DNA of 39,438 nt from Ignavibacteriota bacterium. GTDB lineage: Bacteria; Bacteroidota; Ignavibacteria; Kapaibacteriales; UBA2268. Under the pieces are notes generated by a model. That model searched no databases and was not told the DNA's origin. It worked only from the letters and a program-made list of their open reading frames with translations. This document shows positions 4,811 to 12,575 of this stretch, piece after piece. Each line of letters opens with the position of its first letter. The stretch's first letter is position 1. The stretch is from the NCBI GenBank assembly GCA_024636855.1, contig JAGXGG010000006.1:1-39438 (forward strand). Reading direction: 5' to 3'. The translations under genes and the position numbers were made by a program.

Positions 4811-5791
4811 CTACTTTCTTCTATTGTTTACCATTGCAATCCCAGCCTGTATTGCCTCTAGTGTGCTGGTCTCGTCAGCTGTGTTTGTTCCAGCTATTTG
4901 GTAAGCAGTTCCGTGATCGGGAGAAACTCGGACGATTGAAAGATTAGCGGTGAAGTTTACTCCACCTCCTTGAGCCAATAATTTGAGGGGGATTAGACCT
5001 TGATCATGGTACATAGCCAGTATGCCATCATATTCTTTGTACTGTCCGAATCCGAAGAAACCATCGGCAGGGAATGGGCCTTCTGCAACAGAGTGTTCGT
5101 GTCTTATGTTTAGCTTTTCCACTGTGTCATTTATATATGAGACTTCTTCTGTACCTATGTTACCTTGCTCACCAGCATGTGGGTTTAGTCCAAGTATTGC
5201 TATTCGTGGTTTCTCTATTCCAAAATCTTGACGCAATGAATTCTCAAGAGCTGCGTACTTGCTTTCTATTAGTCTAGGTCGGAGTAACTTATTTACTCGG
5301 CTAATTGGCTCGTGTACGGTTACTAGAGCCACTTTTATTTTTCCAGAGAATAGAATCATTAGTGGGTCAGCTCCAAACGATTCGCCTAGCATTTCTGTAT
5401 GTCCAGGAAAGTTAAAACCAGAAAGAGAGATTGCTTTTTTATTAATCGGAAGTGTGAGTAGAATATCTGCATTACTAGATTTAATAAATTCTACAGCATC
5501 GGTTATACTATCAGCTGCTATTTTGCCTGCCTCTGCAGTTATCTGTCCGAATTCAATCGATGCGTCTATACCCTTATTCCGAATTTCAACATTAAAACCA
5601 GAGAGCTTTATACCATTTTCAGTTTCTTCGAAATTGATATCTAATCCATCGAGATAGTCGATAATTAATCTATATGGACCAAAAAGAATAAAACTTAGGT
5701 CATTTGTGTCATTAGTTAACTTGCCTAGAGCCTTTGCAAAGCACTCAAGTCCTATTCCGTTTACATCACCTATGGATATAGCTATTTTCAT
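4811..5791 (-). CDS. pdxA: 4-hydroxythreonine-4-phosphate dehydrogenase PdxA
   Basis: Oxidises 4-phosphooxy-threonine in pyridoxal-phosphate synthesis; a cytoplasmic, metal-dependent NAD enzyme. The product from the chosen start has 326 residues, normal for PdxA. It begins MKIAISIGDVNGIGLE and has the metal-site histidines in FPGHTEM and MYHDQGLIPLK, plus VTVHEPISRV. The frame could extend 10 codons upstream, but ATG at 5791 has AAAGGA 9 bases before it and begins one base after the rodA stop, so it is preferred. It is the last gene of the chain running from 12575, followed by a terminator. Confidence 0.95.
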   Translation of the reverse strand: MKIAISIGDVNGIGLECFAKALGKLTNDTNDLSFILFGPYRLIIDYLDGLDINFEETENGIKLSGFNVEIRNKGIDASIEFGQITAEAGKIAADSITDAVEFIKSSNADILLTLPINKKAISLSGFNFPGHTEMLGESFGADPLMILFSGKIKVALVTVHEPISRVNKLLRPRLIESKYAALENSLRQDFGIEKPRIAILGLNPHAGEQGNIGTEEVSYINDTVEKLNIRHEHSVAEGPFPADGFFGFGQYKEYDGILAMYHDQGLIPLKLLAQGGGVNFTANLSIVRVSPDHGTAYQIAGTNTADETSTLEAIQAGIAMVNNRRK

Positions 5792-5792
5792 A

Positions 5793-7031
5793 TTAGAGCA
5801 TCCTTTGTGTACGATTTGCATTTAATAACATACCTGCCAAAGTCATATTGAAGAGTAACGAAGTACCTCCATAACTCATAAATGGCAGGGGTATCCCCAT
5901 AACTGGCATCATACCTATGACCATACCTATATTGATTAGTATATGATAGAGGAAGATGACACCTATCCCAAAGCAGAGTATTTTGAAAAAAGGATTATCA
6001 TTTTCTGTGGCTAGTTTTACTGCTCTTAATATGAGAACCCCAAAAAGGAATATAATACCTGCTCCACCAAGAAATCCAAATTCCTCAGTAGGTACAGAAT
6101 ATATAAAATCAGTCCATTGCTCAGGTATATAGCGGAGTTGAGTCAGAGTTCCTTGCTGAAAACCTTTACCAGTTATACCACCACTACCAACTGCGAGTTT
6201 CGATTGCATTACATTGTAGCCACTACCACGCGGATCACTTTCTGGGTCCAAGAAGCTATCTATTCTTGATTGTTGATGTGGTGCCAAACTCTTATAAACT
6301 ATTGGTCCGGCTAGTCCAACCGAAAATAATACGGCGACAGCTAGAATTTTGAGTGGTATTCTGCCTTTGAGCATTAACGCTACTACCGAAAAGACACTCG
6401 CTCCTATAAGATAGAAATATGAATCTCCTAACGAAGCTATTAATATAAAAGGGGCTACAACAATAACAAGTAATATAATAGAACTAAACCCTGTCCAAAA
6501 TAAGATTCCTAAAAATAGGGCTATAAGCACTGAAGCTGAACCAATATCTGGCTGTAACATAACCAATACTAGTAAAGGCAAGAGGAATAAAGTAGAACGA
6601 CCAAGTATGTTGATCTTGCTTATACTTTTTCCTTTCTGAGACAAATAGTTAGATAGACCCATCAAAAGACCTAACTTGGCAATTTCTGCGGGTTGCATAT
6701 TGAACCCACCTATCCTAATCCACCCCATAGTACCATTTATCCTGACCCCGACGAAAAGTACAGCTATAAGGAGAATAACTGATAAACCGTAGACCCAATA
6801 AGATAAAGTGCGGAGTTTTTTATGGGGAAAAAAGGCAACTGAAATTAATACTACTATACCGATTACTGCAGATAGTACTTGCTTGTCAAAAAAGCTACCT
6901 GCAAAAGAAACTGTGGCTGAGTAAATAGAGAGTAATCCCATTAGAGTAAGCATGATAACAGTAAAAAAAGTAGTCCAATCGAAATTCTCTACTTTAGTTT
7001 CTGATAGCTTATAGTCTAATGTATTATCCAA
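5793..7031 (-). CDS. rodA: Rod-shape peptidoglycan glycosyltransferase RodA
   Basis: An inner-membrane SEDS glycosyltransferase that polymerises lipid II into glycan strands for cell elongation, normally with a class B penicillin-binding protein. It has 412 residues with about ten helices and the family signatures GIPLPFMSYGGTSLL and QWTDFIYSVPTEEFG. The only start that keeps the first helix whole is TTG at 7031; the next Met is inside that helix. This TTG lies inside the end of purC (8-base overlap), so translation is likely coupled. No mrdA/PBP2 or mre gene is nearby in this window. Confidence 0.94.
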   Translation of the reverse strand: MDNTLDYKLSETKVENFDWTTFFTVIMLTLMGLLSIYSATVSFAGSFFDKQVLSAVIGIVVLISVAFFPHKKLRTLSYWVYGLSVILLIAVLFVGVRINGTMGWIRIGGFNMQPAEIAKLGLLMGLSNYLSQKGKSISKINILGRSTLFLLPLLVLVMLQPDIGSASVLIALFLGILFWTGFSSIILLVIVVAPFILIASLGDSYFYLIGASVFSVVALMLKGRIPLKILAVAVLFSVGLAGPIVYKSLAPHQQSRIDSFLDPESDPRGSGYNVMQSKLAVGSGGITGKGFQQGTLTQLRYIPEQWTDFIYSVPTEEFGFLGGAGIIFLFGVLILRAVKLATENDNPFFKILCFGIGVIFLYHILINIGMVIGMMPVMGIPLPFMSYGGTSLLFNMTLAGMLLNANRTQRML

Positions 7032-7920
7032 CGAATTGAGTTCCAGTTATCTTGAAAAATGCTTCCTTGTACTTGGCGTTTATTTTTTCAATTACATCGT
7101 TGGGCAACTTAGGGGCAGGAGGGGTTTTATCCCAATCCAAAGTTTCTAAGTAGTCTCTAAGTATTTGTTTGTCGTAGTTTTGTGGCTCTTCGCCTGGTTG
7201 ATACGTTTCTTCTAACCAAAGACGTGAAGAATCAGGTGTAAGAGCTTCATCTATAAGTATTATCTCACCAGTTTCTAACGCACCAAATTCGAATTTAGTA
7301 TCTGCTAATAATATACCTGATTTTCCTAATCTTTCTGCTCCGAAATTGTAAAGTTCTATTGAGATTGCTTTTAATAAATCCGTAGTTTTCTTACCTATAA
7401 TGTCGCAACACAGTTCGTAGCTGATATTCTCATCGTGTCCTTCGTCAGCTTTAGTAGATGGTGTGAAAATAGGCTCAGGTAATTTTTCAAATTTTCTTAG
7501 ACCTGCTGGTATATCTATACCACAGATTTTACCTGTTTCTTGGTAAGATTTCCATCCTGAACCAGCTACATAACCTCTTACTATGAATTCAACTGGAAGT
7601 GGTTTAGCTTTTCTTACAATCATACTACGCTTACTAAGAATCTCTTTGTGTGCTGATAGTGAATCTGGAAAATCAGAAAAATCACTTGCTATTAAGTGAT
7701 TATTGATAATGTGTTTTGTACTATTCAACCAATAAGTTGAGATTTGATTTAGTATTTTTCCTTTCTCTGGTATAGGTTCATTCATAATCACATCGAAGGC
7801 CGATATACGGTCAGTCGCAACGATTAGCAAAGATTCACCTAGGTCAAATACTTCACGTACTTTGCCCTTACGGACTAGGTTCAAATCATTAATATCTATG
7901 TTATATAAGGCCTTGCTCAT
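7024..7920 (-). CDS. purC: Phosphoribosylaminoimidazole-succinocarboxamide synthase
   Basis: SAICAR synthetase joins aspartate to CAIR using ATP in purine synthesis. The 298-residue product is the longer form of the enzyme and has the expected blocks: KGKVREVFDLGESLLIVATD near the N-terminus, DVIMNEPIPEKGKILNQ, GYVAGSGWKSY, and IDEALTPDSSRLW late in the chain. Its ATG shares a base with the stop of the upstream gene (TAATG), and its 3' end overlaps rodA by 8 bases. No other purine genes are here. Confidence 0.96.
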   Translation of the reverse strand: MSKALYNIDINDLNLVRKGKVREVFDLGESLLIVATDRISAFDVIMNEPIPEKGKILNQISTYWLNSTKHIINNHLIASDFSDFPDSLSAHKEILSKRSMIVRKAKPLPVEFIVRGYVAGSGWKSYQETGKICGIDIPAGLRKFEKLPEPIFTPSTKADEGHDENISYELCCDIIGKKTTDLLKAISIELYNFGAERLGKSGILLADTKFEFGALETGEIILIDEALTPDSSRLWLEETYQPGEEPQNYDKQILRDYLETLDWDKTPPAPKLPNDVIEKINAKYKEAFFKITGTQFVG

Positions 7921-10445
7921 TATATCATCACCGAGTAAATATAAAGTACATAATCTACAATTGATCTGTCTAATTGCATAATTAATAGTGGTATACCTAC
8001 GAATATTAATATTATCACAAGCTCTGTTAGATATACTTTTCCTTTTGGTTTATCGAATACAACAGCCGAGGATTTGAATAATCTGAATGCTGACCAGATT
8101 TTCACGAACACTAGTATTAAGAATATTAATAGATAACCGTTTTCCATTTGTTCGAATATTCTAATCATGAATGCTGATACTGGTAGTAATAGCAATGTTG
8201 GAATTAATGCCCAAGTAGCTAGAGTAAATGCATCTTTGAAGAATAATCTAACTGACAATACAAAAGCCGCTACTCTAAGTAATGAAGCAAGTAATAGTAT
8301 ATAAAGCACTATAATCAATGACATTACTATTATCAGCAACGCCGGAGACCATACCATAGCGAATAGATTTTCTTTGATTATTTCTATTGGTACTATGACA
8401 TTTAGGAAATATTCTAAAGTGTCATTGAACCGTAGATAATAAAACGTAGCAGCAATGAAAGAAGCCGTAGATACGGAGACTAGTAATGCCAATACACTAG
8501 TTTGTATTGCAGAGATTAGCCGTTGATCTCTGATATCAGCATAGAAATTATAAGGTCGTAATATAGAACGGAAAAAATATTCTCTAAATCGCTTGAATCG
8601 GTTGATCATCATCAAGAATATCAGACCAAATATAATGCCTGTTATTATGAATACGATTGTCTGGTCACCCGCTGGATCGCTACCAGCAGTTAATAGTGGT
8701 TCTTTCTCTTTATTGAATATTGATTTTACAGCTTTGAAGGCTGCTCTTTCGTTTCTATCTCTATCAACCAATCCTGATGTGTAAACATACTTATTTTCGC
8801 TATTGTTGATCATTATGGGCTGTTGTAGCAGATAGTCATTATATGTATCTATTGTGTAGCCAGCTAGATTTGCCGGTTTGAAAACAGAGTAAGAATTCAG
8901 CAAGTAATATGCTTGAAATTCTAAGGAAAGTTTATCTGCATATCCATTTTTATTATGTTTCTGAACAGTAGTTCCTAACTCACAAATAATTGGCAAACTG
9001 CCTGAGTTTTGTTGCAATTCTTTTAGTCGGACTAACTGCTTATTGAAATCGAATGTTTTATGTTTGAAGTTATATATTAAGAAATCAAATCCCTTTATAT
9101 TTGGGTAATCCGAGCCAGAATAAATAGTCTTGTGCACCAAATTATTAGTGTATTTATTCATAATAGCTAGTATATCTTCGGTATAGCTTTTAGTTTGATT
9201 TTGCCCTTCTGAGGAATAAGAATACAAGCCATAACTGAAGATAGAAGGTGAATTGTCTATAGTAGTTAGTATTCTGTCGGCTATGTTTTTGATTCTAACC
9301 TTTATTTCATCTGAGTTTAGAATAGAAGTAGGGGTATTATATACTGGTAGCTCATATAGCACTAATAGTCCATATTTATTACAAAGTTCTATTAGACTAG
9401 GGTGAGGCAATCCAAACTTCACTCTAATTGTATTTGCTCCCAATTTCTTGATTTCTCTTATGTCTTTCTCATATTGAATTTCTGAGAGAGATTGCCCTTG
9501 TCCTTTGATATCATCGGCATAGTTTACAGATTGGAGTTTGAATGGCTGTCCATTAAGTAAAAATCCATTTCCGTTATCAGAGCTGATTATAGTAACATCT
9601 TTGAATCCGATTGAAATTTCGCTCTGGTCTATTACGCTGCCACCTCTTATCACTTTTACTATTAAGCTATATAGATTTGGTTCGTCTGGTGACCAAAGGA
9701 GGGGATTATTTACTATTCCTTTTGATTCAAAATTATAGACTCTTGAATTACTGACGCTCATTGTAGAAGTACCAATCTCATATTGACCTTCTTTACTTTT
9801 CAAATATGTTTTTACTGTTATATTACCTTTAACAGAAGAAGCTTGACCTGTTGTTATTGCGCCTTTTATTTTGAGAGAAGCACTCGAATTACCGTCAGCT
9901 AGTTTATAAGATGAACTAATGCTACTTACCCAAGCCCCTGCAGTACTTATCAAGCTTATATTTCTTATTATTCCAGATGCTGCTTTAGTTACATGTATTG
10001 GTAATTGTTGTACTTGACGAGCATATCCTTCTGTCGAATTAACCTTTATCTTTAATTCATTGTCACCCACTTTAAGTGTGCTTTCTGGTAAATCGACCCA
10101 AAACTGTGTCATTCCACCAAAAAAATTACCTAAAAACTGATTGTTAACATAGAACTCTCCATTATCTGAAATACCATCTACTTCTAGATGAAATGTTCTT
10201 TTGGCTAAATCTGCTTTTGATAGCTTAATTGTCTTTTTATAGAGTAAAGTAGTATTCTCATAGCTTGTAGATGGCACGTGCTGTACCGACCATGTATCGC
10301 CTTCGTCGAATGACACTTTCCATTTGCCAGTTAAATCTAATACTTTTCTTTCCATTCCATAAGTTTCGGTAACTTGTGTAGTATCGAATTGAGCAAAAGC
10401 AGCAGAAAAACTAATCAGTAGTATTAATAATATTATTTTTTTCAT
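7920..10445 (-). CDS. GH2-like beta-galactosidase-fold protein fused to a Yip1-like membrane domain
   Basis: The 841-residue protein has a signal peptide (1-18), a GH2 sugar-binding jelly roll (about 35-165, DLTGKWKVSFDEGDTW), an immunoglobulin-like domain (about 170-285), a TIM-barrel-like domain (about 290-575), then five or six membrane helices (about 597-840). Residues 735-800 (FKDAFTLATWALIPTLLLLP) look like a Yip1-type domain. Glu489 (LPIICELGT) fits the GH2 nucleophile, but the acid/base Asn-Glu expected after SPSIFSYGL is replaced by YSYSSEG, so ordinary glycosidase activity is doubtful. The extracellular domain would be held at the inner membrane. It abuts the upstream oxidoreductase (TAAATG) and overlaps purC by one base. 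Domain calls are by eye: GH2 part likely, Yip1 part tentative. Confidence 0.8.
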   Translation of the reverse strand: MKKIILLILLISFSAAFAQFDTTQVTETYGMERKVLDLTGKWKVSFDEGDTWSVQHVPSTSYENTTLLYKKTIKLSKADLAKRTFHLEVDGISDNGEFYVNNQFLGNFFGGMTQFWVDLPESTLKVGDNELKIKVNSTEGYARQVQQLPIHVTKAASGIIRNISLISTAGAWVSSISSSYKLADGNSSASLKIKGAITTGQASSVKGNITVKTYLKSKEGQYEIGTSTMSVSNSRVYNFESKGIVNNPLLWSPDEPNLYSLIVKVIRGGSVIDQSEISIGFKDVTIISSDNGNGFLLNGQPFKLQSVNYADDIKGQGQSLSEIQYEKDIREIKKLGANTIRVKFGLPHPSLIELCNKYGLLVLYELPVYNTPTSILNSDEIKVRIKNIADRILTTIDNSPSIFSYGLYSYSSEGQNQTKSYTEDILAIMNKYTNNLVHKTIYSGSDYPNIKGFDFLIYNFKHKTFDFNKQLVRLKELQQNSGSLPIICELGTTVQKHNKNGYADKLSLEFQAYYLLNSYSVFKPANLAGYTIDTYNDYLLQQPIMINNSENKYVYTSGLVDRDRNERAAFKAVKSIFNKEKEPLLTAGSDPAGDQTIVFIITGIIFGLIFLMMINRFKRFREYFFRSILRPYNFYADIRDQRLISAIQTSVLALLVSVSTASFIAATFYYLRFNDTLEYFLNVIVPIEIIKENLFAMVWSPALLIIVMSLIIVLYILLLASLLRVAAFVLSVRLFFKDAFTLATWALIPTLLLLPVSAFMIRIFEQMENGYLLIFLILVFVKIWSAFRLFKSSAVVFDKPKGKVYLTELVIILIFVGIPLLIMQLDRSIVDYVLYIYSVMI

Positions 10446-12575
10446 TTATGATATTGTAATTGATTGCGACACTTTTAATGATTCTAAAATAGCAAAAGTA
10501 CACTTTGTAACAGCAAATAATTCTTCTTTTGGAATTAATGCTTTGCCAGATTTTATAGAGCCAACGAATAACTCCATTTCTTTTTTGATTCCTTTCTCCC
10601 CGTCCATCTTGATAGACTTAGCGTTCTTACCTTTGTGGACAGTTACAGTGTTGAAATTATCCATAACGTAAACAGAGTTCTCACAGAATACCTCGCAGTA
10701 CTCTTTGCCCAAACTACCGTCTCCATTAGAGAAATACTCTAGTACACCGACAGAACCATCTTGGAATTTGATAGTTGCAGCTACATTGTCTTCGTTGAGC
10801 TTAGCTTCCGAATTGCCTGAAAGTGATTCAGCATATACTCTGATAGGCATACTACCAGTAAGGTAAACCATAGTATCTATGAAATGGCAAGCCTCACCGA
10901 TTATACGTCCACCACCCTCACTTCTTTGTGACCAATGGTCTGCTGGTATATGTCCTGCATTCACTCTGTACTTAACTATCATAGGCTCTTTGTGACCAGC
11001 GAGCTCTGATTTGATAGTAGTGAATGACTTTGAAAATCTTCTATTGAAACCAACCATCAGCTGTTTATCTGACTTTGAACTGGCTTCTATTATTTTATCT
11101 AGCTCTTCTTGATTGAGAGCTAAAGGTTTCTCCACGTAAACGTGTTTGCTATTTTCTATTCCGTTGAGTACGAATTCACCATGAGTATTGTGCCAAGATG
11201 CTATGAACAGTGTATTAATATCTTTGTCTTTTATTAGCTCTATAGGGTTTGCACCTGCTTTGGCGAAACCGAAATTAGTCGCAACGGTTTTAGAACTAGC
11301 TGCGCTATTATTTGCTACTGAAACAAAGGATACACCTTGCTTAGTTAGTGGCGGTAAAAGGTAATTTTGAGCAAATTGACCAGCACCAACAAAGCCGATT
11401 TTCACTTCCGAATCTTTAGTAATCGCACCAGTAGAAACGAATGTCGTTTGCTTACCTTCTCGCTTCGGATAGTTTATTAGTATTCCCAGATAAGGTGCCG
11501 ATGATGAGCTAATCATATCATAAGCTTTGCTTGCTTCTTGCACATCGAAAGCGTGGGAAGTCATACTCTCTACATCTATTCTGCCTTTTTCTATTAGCTC
11601 TACGAAGGCCTGCATGTTCCTGTTCTCAGTCCATCGAACGAAGGCGTAAGGATAATCGTGCCCATCTTCTTCGTAAAAAGCGTCATATCTACCTGGGCCG
11701 TAACTCGAAGATATACGAAGATTAATTTCTTTTTTGTAGAATGGATGACGCTTCATATCCATACCTATAGCACCGACTATAACTACTTTGCCTTTCTTGC
11801 GAGTCATCTCCATAGCCATCTGAAGTGGTGCACTACTCGAAGTAGAAGCTGTTATAATAGTAGAATCAGCGCCTTCGCCATTGCTTCTAGCTATTACTTT
11901 CTGCACGTTTTCCGACGAGCTTTTCAAAACTGAATCGCATCCAAATTGCAATCCTAGCTCCATAGCTCTATCGTCTATATCCATTCCTATTACATTACAA
12001 CCAGCAGCTTTTAAGAACTGCACAGTTATTAATCCTAATAATCCCAATCCGACTACTACCACATTCTCACCCAAGCTAGGTTCAGCTTGGCGAAATCCTT
12101 GCATAGCAATTGCTCCTACGGTAGTATATGCGGCATCTTCGAAAGATACGCTATCAGCTATTTTAACTACTAGATTCTTGGGTACAGCGATTATCTCTGC
12201 ATGATTAGCAATGCCAGCTCCTGCTGCCGCTACTCTATCACCAGGTTTGAATTCATCACATTTCGATTCGATAACTACACCCGAAGCGGAATAACCAAGC
12301 AATTTGAATGAATTAAGCTTTGCACTTACTCTGCGCATAGTTTCTTTTAGACCATAGCTTTTCACAGCATCTAGGACTACTTTTACTTGATCGGGTTGCT
12401 TTTTAGCACGTGTGAGTAAACTCCCTTGACCATTGTCAACGGAAGTCTTTTCTGTTCCAGCGCTAATAAGTGAGCTATGAACTTCTACTAAAACCCCATT
12501 AGCAGGGCACTGTGGGGAGGGCATCTCTTCTGTCCTTACTTCCCCAGATTTTTGATATTGGACTACTTGAAGCAT
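10446..12575 (-). CDS. Two-domain oxidoreductase: MDR dehydrogenase fused to Gfo/Idh/MocA domain
   Basis: The 709-residue cytoplasmic protein begins with a medium-chain dehydrogenase-like half (1-370) with the nucleotide loop GLGLLG (176-181). The usual catalytic-zinc Cys is missing near residues 35-45 (SSLISAGTEKTS), so this half is probably zinc-free. The second half (390-709) is a Gfo/Idh/MocA domain with its own Rossmann loop GAGQFAQ (397-403) and the family EKP motif (482-484). This fusion is known beside polysaccharide and sugar-nucleotide genes, where it is thought to oxidise or reduce a sugar, but the substrate is not established. It is the first gene of the chain ending at pdxA, and a promoter-like box lies 27 bases upstream. 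Confidence 0.9.
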   Translation of the reverse strand: MLQVVQYQKSGEVRTEEMPSPQCPANGVLVEVHSSLISAGTEKTSVDNGQGSLLTRAKKQPDQVKVVLDAVKSYGLKETMRRVSAKLNSFKLLGYSASGVVIESKCDEFKPGDRVAAAGAGIANHAEIIAVPKNLVVKIADSVSFEDAAYTTVGAIAMQGFRQAEPSLGENVVVVGLGLLGLITVQFLKAAGCNVIGMDIDDRAMELGLQFGCDSVLKSSSENVQKVIARSNGEGADSTIITASTSSSAPLQMAMEMTRKKGKVVIVGAIGMDMKRHPFYKKEINLRISSSYGPGRYDAFYEEDGHDYPYAFVRWTENRNMQAFVELIEKGRIDVESMTSHAFDVQEASKAYDMISSSSAPYLGILINYPKREGKQTTFVSTGAITKDSEVKIGFVGAGQFAQNYLLPPLTKQGVSFVSVANNSAASSKTVATNFGFAKAGANPIELIKDKDINTLFIASWHNTHGEFVLNGIENSKHVYVEKPLALNQEELDKIIEASSKSDKQLMVGFNRRFSKSFTTIKSELAGHKEPMIVKYRVNAGHIPADHWSQRSEGGGRIIGEACHFIDTMVYLTGSMPIRVYAESLSGNSEAKLNEDNVAATIKFQDGSVGVLEYFSNGDGSLGKEYCEVFCENSVYVMDNFNTVTVHKGKNAKSIKMDGEKGIKKEMELFVGSIKSGKALIPKEELFAVTKCTFAILESLKVSQSITIS

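Follow-up and report, generated by a model that had tools for sequence, protein, structure and literature searches.

A Candidate Envelope Pseudoglycosidase of the Ignavibacteria: A GH2-Like Body without Its Catalytic Pair Joined to a Yip1-Like Membrane Domain

Introduction

What can a protein do that carries the complete body of a glycoside hydrolase of family 2 (GH2), lacks the catalytic pair of such enzymes and ends in a membrane domain? The question is raised by one gene of the window, that is, the whole stretch of 39,438 nucleotides (positions 1 to 39,438 of contig JAGXGG010000006.1, assembly GCA_024636855.1) from an Ignavibacteriota bacterium of the order Kapaibacteriales (Ignavibacteria; UBA2268). 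A first-pass annotation of the window had described the product as a GH2-fold protein fused to a Yip1-like membrane domain and had left two roles for it, a sugar-binding sensor or an unusual enzyme. The computations reported here give a GH2 fold, the loss of the catalytic pair, a single clade, near-universal retention among kin, little nonsynonymous change and a set of co-oriented neighbours. Pseudoenzymes are well known in signalling, and the explanation that we put first, with about an even chance of being right, is an inner-membrane pseudoglycosidase that binds an envelope glycan or a lipid-linked sugar and serves as a sensor or as an assembly scaffold. Sugar binding, the identity of the sugar and the signalling or assembly partner of this pseudoglycosidase are what we infer beyond those results.

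GH2 Fold and Catalytic Residues

All three GH2 domains of Pfam score above their cut-offs in the window protein and follow one another in the order jelly roll, Ig-like domain and TIM barrel. The AlphaFold2 model, for which 96 family members formed the input alignment, has a mean predicted local distance difference test score (pLDDT) of 92.7 and a predicted template modelling score (pTM) of 0.88, and its residues 24–581 superpose on the GH2 beta-galacturonidase 6ncw_C with a Z of 37.4 and a root-mean-square deviation of 2.7 Å over 533 aligned residues. The 841-residue chain of jelly roll, Ig-like domain, TIM barrel and membrane helices read in the first-pass annotation is thus borne out by Pfam, by the model and by the structural match. 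As a separate candidate, a plain beta-galactosidase was ruled out: the best NCBIfam GH2 equivalog score was 136.7 against a cut-off of 900, and the catalytic pair is absent.

In GH2 enzymes, the acid/base is the Glu of an Asn-Glu pair at the end of the fourth barrel strand, and the nucleophile is a Glu on the seventh strand. Residues were counted over a family set of 101 members, the window included, from which the broken gene L102 was omitted and for which 7 of 109 loci had been dropped as repeats of contigs already present; the controls were 10 GH2 proteins of the same phylum without the membrane part, presumed rather than proven to be active and aligned with their insertions dropped. Profile alignments place Ser409-Tyr410 of the window protein at the ordinary Asn-Glu site, where all 10 controls carry W[GS]xxNE, and Glu489 aligns with the nucleophile Glu of all 10 controls, so that the lost acid/base site and the nucleophile position were both rightly assigned at the outset. 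A Glu stands in the acid/base column in 8 of the 101 members, and the nucleophile Glu is present in 23, against 10/10 controls; no other residue was seen to supply an acid/base Glu in place, and none of the 101 has both catalytic acids. The surrounding pocket has fared similarly: His at column 310 occurs in 2 members, His at column 344 in 7, Trp405 in 36, Asn459 in 16 and Trp533 in 29, each of them being present in 10/10 controls, while no member keeps more than four of the seven such positions and 94/101 keep two or fewer. As computed from these alignments, the catalytic pair appears to be lost across the family.

These counts bear directly on the enzyme half of the earlier proposal, which in the form considered here would make the protein, in the window's genus at least, an active but atypical glycosidase or transglycosidase that uses Glu489 with a non-standard acid, for instance Glu413, water or the substrate. 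Glu489 is present in the window protein and in its three nearest relatives (L002–L004), and Glu413 lies near the lost acid, at a position where 41/101 members have Glu. However, the nucleophile is found in fewer than a quarter of the family, the standard acids are never found together, and the His, Trp and Asn residues of the pocket are mostly gone; in addition, the barrel acids conserved in at least 80% of members are D328, D454, D504, E509 and D537, and most of these look structural because all but D504 also occur in 4–10 of the 10 controls. An active enzyme is therefore quite improbable, and the sensor is the part of the earlier proposal that is kept as the leading idea.

Membrane Part and Predicted Topology

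Six spans were predicted from the model helices (residues 596–616, 646–673, 701–729, 748–766, 770–797 and 801–827), of which the last five make up the region resembling Pfam Yip1 (PF04893). The polytopic Yip1-like C-terminal part that had been claimed thus appears in the models as one tether span and five more, and a C-terminal part without such topology was not seen; modelled separately, the C-terminal 258 residues reach a pLDDT of 93.5. PF04893 is matched at E ≤ 0.01 by 64 of 96 family members, with a best value of 7.4e-10.

The charge of the loops, averaged over the 101 members, agrees with this arrangement in two of the three that are predicted to be cytosolic. The loop of residues 617–645, here called the collar, carries on average 6.95 Lys and Arg against 3.17 Asp and Glu, and the loop of residues 730–747 carries 2.08 against 0.52, both of which fit the cytosolic side. 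The GH2 body is accordingly predicted from the models to be periplasmic, the collar to be cytosolic and the Yip1-like domain to lie in the membrane.

The following mechanism is proposed. A signal peptide would send the complete GH2 body, without its catalytic pair, into the periplasm, and a single span would return the chain to the cytosol, where an arginine-rich collar on the inner face would be followed by the five-span Yip1-like domain. The remodelled GH2 pocket may bind an envelope glycan or a lipid-linked sugar, and the membrane part may relay the bound state or hold a complex together, so that the whole would act as a sensor or scaffold for the machine of cell-wall elongation or that of lipid A and lipopolysaccharide.

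Conservation and Selection

For the window protein and its nearest relative (92% identical), the barrel has a nonsynonymous rate (dN) of 0.028 and a dN/dS (omega) of 0.015, the membrane part 0.029 and 0.017, and the faster-evolving jelly roll and Ig-like part 0.068 and 0.033; the omega values are rough because the synonymous rate (dS) is near saturation. Conserved in at least 80% of the family and present in 0/10 controls are G40, P120, P169, P367, N498, G501, Y502, D504, A512 and R567, although for the loop 498–504 the control counts may partly be an effect of alignment, since insertions of the controls were dropped; the P169 position is Ala in the window protein. The barrel is, on this comparison, not decaying, since nonsynonymous change is rare and residues specific to the family are conserved.

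Conservation also bears on a second explanation, in which the protein is a structural or assembly factor, the GH2 body being a protein–protein module that binds no sugar and the Yip1-like domain organising membrane complexes. Of all 40-residue blocks, mean conservation peaks in the collar-bearing block 601–640 (0.59, the next being 0.57 for the block 321–360 in the barrel), the jelly roll has conserved residues specific to the family (L38, G40, P120 and P169), and passages of one paper describe the Yip1-family protein YknW as an assembly partner (PMC4887032). On the other hand, N498, G501, Y502 and D504 cluster after the nucleophile strand, in a loop that by GH2 topology would stand at the barrel mouth, which suits ligand binding. 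A structural factor without a sugar is rather unlikely. In the membrane part, W745 and R788 are nearly invariant, and the remainder, with block means of 0.34 to 0.44, shows no clear advantage in conservation over the GH2 body.

Spread and Phylogeny

A match is present in 59 of 60 genomes sampled among the window's kin, covering 43/43 genera; most matches are full length and few are partial, some being pieces at contig ends or in split frames (e.g., G026 and G037). The sole exception is G003, a genome of the window's own genus rated 100% complete, which has no family match. Because the domain matches are significant and a relative occurs in 59/60 kin genomes, the feature exceeds chance, and the same retention ruled out a local oddity or an assembly artefact. 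Apart from its single copy, the window's genome gave no match to the GH2 barrel model.

Two genomes of the kin call for separate mention. In G037, a genome of one contig, the family gene (L102) is split over several frames, perhaps as a broken gene or through sequencing errors. G027, which is filed in another genus, has two near-full-length copies (L002 and one on contig C26), one of them 92% identical to that of the window, and may be a mixed assembly.

Of 395 genomes sampled across the phylum, 157 match at E ≤ 1e-20, many of them over the GH2 part only. Among the genomes listed, whose order seems to follow kinship, all 34 from the window's order match, and in the window's class 62 match and two (G208 and G256) do not; a further 218 non-matching genomes stand beyond those listed. 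One of the 62, G215, matches at 3.6e-23 only and is not shown as full length. Beyond the window's class, the families f24, f27, f42 and f54 have long matches in which the membrane part is included. A further search of named genomes used a 10-row alignment and one motif, YNF[FY]AD[IV]R, and is uninformative on absence elsewhere; 240 of the 254 motif-matching stretches encode a relative, and among the best 80 the labels of named relatives include Ignavibacteria, Kryptonia and Kapabacteria. One record (L171) is titled Armatimonadetes, yet the neighbours of its family member resemble those in L172, which is titled Chlorobiota; the label of L171 may be wrong.

In a tree of 35 fused proteins and 10 controls, the fused proteins lie on one side of a branch with a support of 100/100; the fused proteins thus form one clade, and a single origin fits. 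The first-pass annotation, which had named the phylogenetic spread as a check, had noticed neither the scale of the family nor the neighbourhood of smc described below.

Gene Neighbourhood

As shown in Table 1, the genes of the window run, in order of transcription, from the oxidoreductase through the pseudoglycosidase, purC and rodA to pdxA, in a tightly packed and co-oriented array; the SEDS gene is read as RodA rather than FtsW. The early remark that the neighbours hint at envelope work was supported. Some members of the window's family likewise have the pseudoglycosidase gene together with rodA. The oxidoreductase lies upstream of the family gene in six distinct loci (the window, L103, L104, L186, L189 and L201); purC comes next after the family gene in five of them, L201 ending there, and rodA follows purC in four.

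Table 1. Positions and supporting evidence of the features discussed, numbered from the first letter of the window.
Feature	Position	Strand	Basis or remark
GH2-like pseudoglycosidase gene fused to Yip1-like membrane domain	7920..10445	-	841 residues, ATG start
Predicted signal peptide, residues ~1–19	10389..10445	-	Sequence read by eye
GH2 jelly-roll domain, residues ~30–169	9939..10358	-	Pfam PF02837 at 35–168, 37.4 bits
GH2 Ig-like domain, residues ~183–284	9594..9899	-	Pfam PF00703 at 183–282, 53.4 bits
GH2 TIM barrel, residues ~294–585	8691..9566	-	Pfam PF02836 at 294–575, 37.1 bits; fold match to 6ncw_C
Lost acid/base pair, Ser409-Tyr410 replacing Asn-Glu	9216..9221	-	Profile alignments and residue counts
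Glu489, nucleophile position	8979..8981	-	Alignment with family and controls
First membrane span (tether), residues 596–616	8598..8660	-	Model helices
Arginine-rich collar, residues 617–645, predicted cytosolic side	8511..8597	-	Family conservation and charge counts
Yip1-like five-span membrane domain, residues 646–827	7965..8510	-	Pfam and models
Two-part oxidoreductase (zinc-type dehydrogenase and GFO/IDH/MocA)	10446..12575	-	Pfam; abuts the pseudoglycosidase gene upstream
purC	7024..7920	-	PF01259 SAICAR synthetase, 248.7 bits; 1-base overlap with the pseudoglycosidase gene
rodA-type SEDS gene	5793..7031	-	PF01098 FTSW_RODA_SPOVE, 299.5 bits; 8-base overlap with purC
pdxA	4811..5821	-	PF04166, 305.7 bits; 29-base overlap with rodA

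Elsewhere the constant neighbour is smc. One example each of SMC, LpxB, LpxK, the phosphatase, the methyltransferase and TpiA was confirmed by Pfam, and the counts below rest on similarity to such examples; protein clusters built by loose linkage merged the family with SMC and were not the basis of the smc counts. The first neighbour counts covered loci of at least 9,000 bases, and in L067, L161 and L170 gene calling gave no family gene. For the loci L050–L101 outside the window's order, the co-oriented gene that comes next is smc in 49/49 cases, the three of these 52 left out being L053 (of the window's order), L090 (too short) and L067 (no family gene called). With the named loci added and duplicates removed, the family gene stands directly upstream of smc in 101 of 123 distinct loci, and, with duplicates kept, the two genes are separated by a median of 9 bases, and by no more than 20 bases in 80 of 108 loci. 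Up to seven genes further downstream, 71 of the 101 smc loci have lpxB, 69 a HAD-type phosphatase, 62 lpxK and 61 a PEMT/ICMT-type methyltransferase. An adjacent smc is lacking in 22 distinct loci: fourteen that could be tied to the window's order, L194, tied to it by the name of its isolate (Kapabacteriales strain Clear-D13, PMC7714850), and seven unplaced loci (L171, L172, L173, L177, L181, L187 and L195).

In the window's order, the arrangement is different. The adjacency to smc is absent in 10 loci read from this order, and in the window's genome smc directly follows mreB-mreC-mreD, as identified by Pfam, on contig C77 (L212:5967-11839). In 9 of 19 genomes of the order (that of the window and 18 others), the gene recognised immediately before smc is mreD, and in three of the nine the gap measures about 110 to 456 bases; in G046, mreBCD lies about 4 kb upstream of smc; and in the other 9 of the 19 nothing was recognised upstream of smc, as judged by similarity to one MreD only and on contigs of which some end early. 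Since mreD or mreBCD stands upstream of smc, about half of the 19 genomes have smc together with elongation genes.

This pattern may be taken as the sign of a third function, a factor coupling the envelope to the chromosome, for which the position beside smc would mirror a functional link with SMC. The 101 adjacencies among 123 loci speak for such a link, as do two arrangements in the window's order: smc follows mreD in the genomes just counted, and 4 distinct loci have the family gene ahead of purC-rodA. However, neighbours can persist for reasons of expression alone, and the window's order keeps both genes without direct adjacency; coupling to SMC is improbable as the explanation. For the pseudoglycosidase at the envelope, which we prefer, the gene neighbourhood is suggestive of a shared role and is no proof of it.

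Two further genes were noted near members of the family. At 461–2323, the window encodes a protein that combines an adenylate/guanylate cyclase domain with tetratricopeptide repeats (TPR). Upstream of the family gene and in divergent orientation, L053, L102, L106, L107, L108 and L199 carry a gene of about 2,280 residues; the copy of L199, which repeats the contig of L107, matches SprA_N at 140.9 bits.

Discussion

Several observations weigh against a membrane-bound pseudoglycosidase that reads envelope sugars. Concerning the loss of catalysis, the window protein retains Glu489, an Asn-Glu is in place in 2/101 members (L057 and L065, both without the nucleophile Glu), and the limits stated above apply to the controls, to omega and to the counts for the loop 498–504. 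Concerning the membrane part, the window protein matches PF04893 at residues 627–816 with 23.5 bits, under the gathering cut-off of 28.6, and the short loop 796–802, predicted to be cytosolic, is not positively charged over the family (on average 0.51 Lys and Arg against 0.94 Asp and Glu). Against solved structures, Foldseek had no hit for this part at E ≤ 0.001 and VIA none with a Z of at least 5, in a library that may lack a Yip1 structure, which does not make it a new fold; no link appeared when it was compared pairwise with two free-standing Yip1 proteins that the same genome encodes, a weak test because one sequence each and the Pfam-matched part only were used. Finally, adjacency does not prove a shared function, as purC, pdxA and tpiA are also nearby.

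The family can be compared with three known systems. It shares with the GH2 enzymes (beta-glucuronidase, beta-galacturonidase and beta-galactosidase) the same order of three domains and profile matches along the whole body; it differs from them in the loss of the acid/base pair and of most pocket residues, in a nucleophile that is not conserved, in the added membrane part and in forming a clade separate from the 10 GH2 controls. With the Yip1 domain proteins (PF04893), among them the eukaryotic YIPF proteins and YknW of Bacillus, it is predicted to share a cytosolic stretch followed by five spans with the C-terminus outside. It has been reported, in passages of PMC6682643, that YIPF proteins have a cytosolic N-terminus and then five spans ending outside, and three YIPF sequence motifs are named there; passages of PMC4887032 state that YknW modulates the assembly of an ABC transporter complex. 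Unlike these proteins, the family has a predicted periplasmic GH2 body of about 570 residues, an extra tether span and an arginine-rich collar of its own. The third comparison is by analogy only: iRhoms, described in passages of PMC6451368 as inactive relatives of an enzyme that are retained as membrane regulators, are alike in that an inactive enzyme relative serves as a membrane regulator; their fold and lineage are unrelated, and no homology is claimed.

In the literature on Yip1, on GH2 pseudoenzymes and on these lineages, of which few subscription journals were covered, no paper on such a protein was found. Nothing on a GH2-Yip1 fusion was found in the passages of PMC9318685 that were available; those of PMC11237479 mention Yip1 only for another domain family; and the main text of the Melioribacter genome paper (PMC3534657), as far as available, contains neither "galactosidase" nor "family 2" nor "smc". 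Both halves of the protein are of known kinds; their combination, the missing catalytic pair and the retention throughout the lineage seem not to have been described.

The widest explanation considered makes the protein a lineage-wide and possibly essential trans-envelope coupler, in which the GH2 body would read a wall or lipid A precursor and the collar and Yip1-like domain would relay this to the elongation machinery and to SMC. We regard it as a long shot; if true, such a coupler would tie envelope growth to the folding of the nucleoid. As for the sugar-binding pseudoglycosidase, near-universal retention, low nonsynonymous change and, outside the window's order, a fixed position next to smc and lipid A genes suggest a core function, which an annotation as "beta-galactosidase" would hide. 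The gene probably has a real job, perhaps in the building or the sensing of the envelope, and the family could give a handle on the role of bacterial Yip1-type domains.

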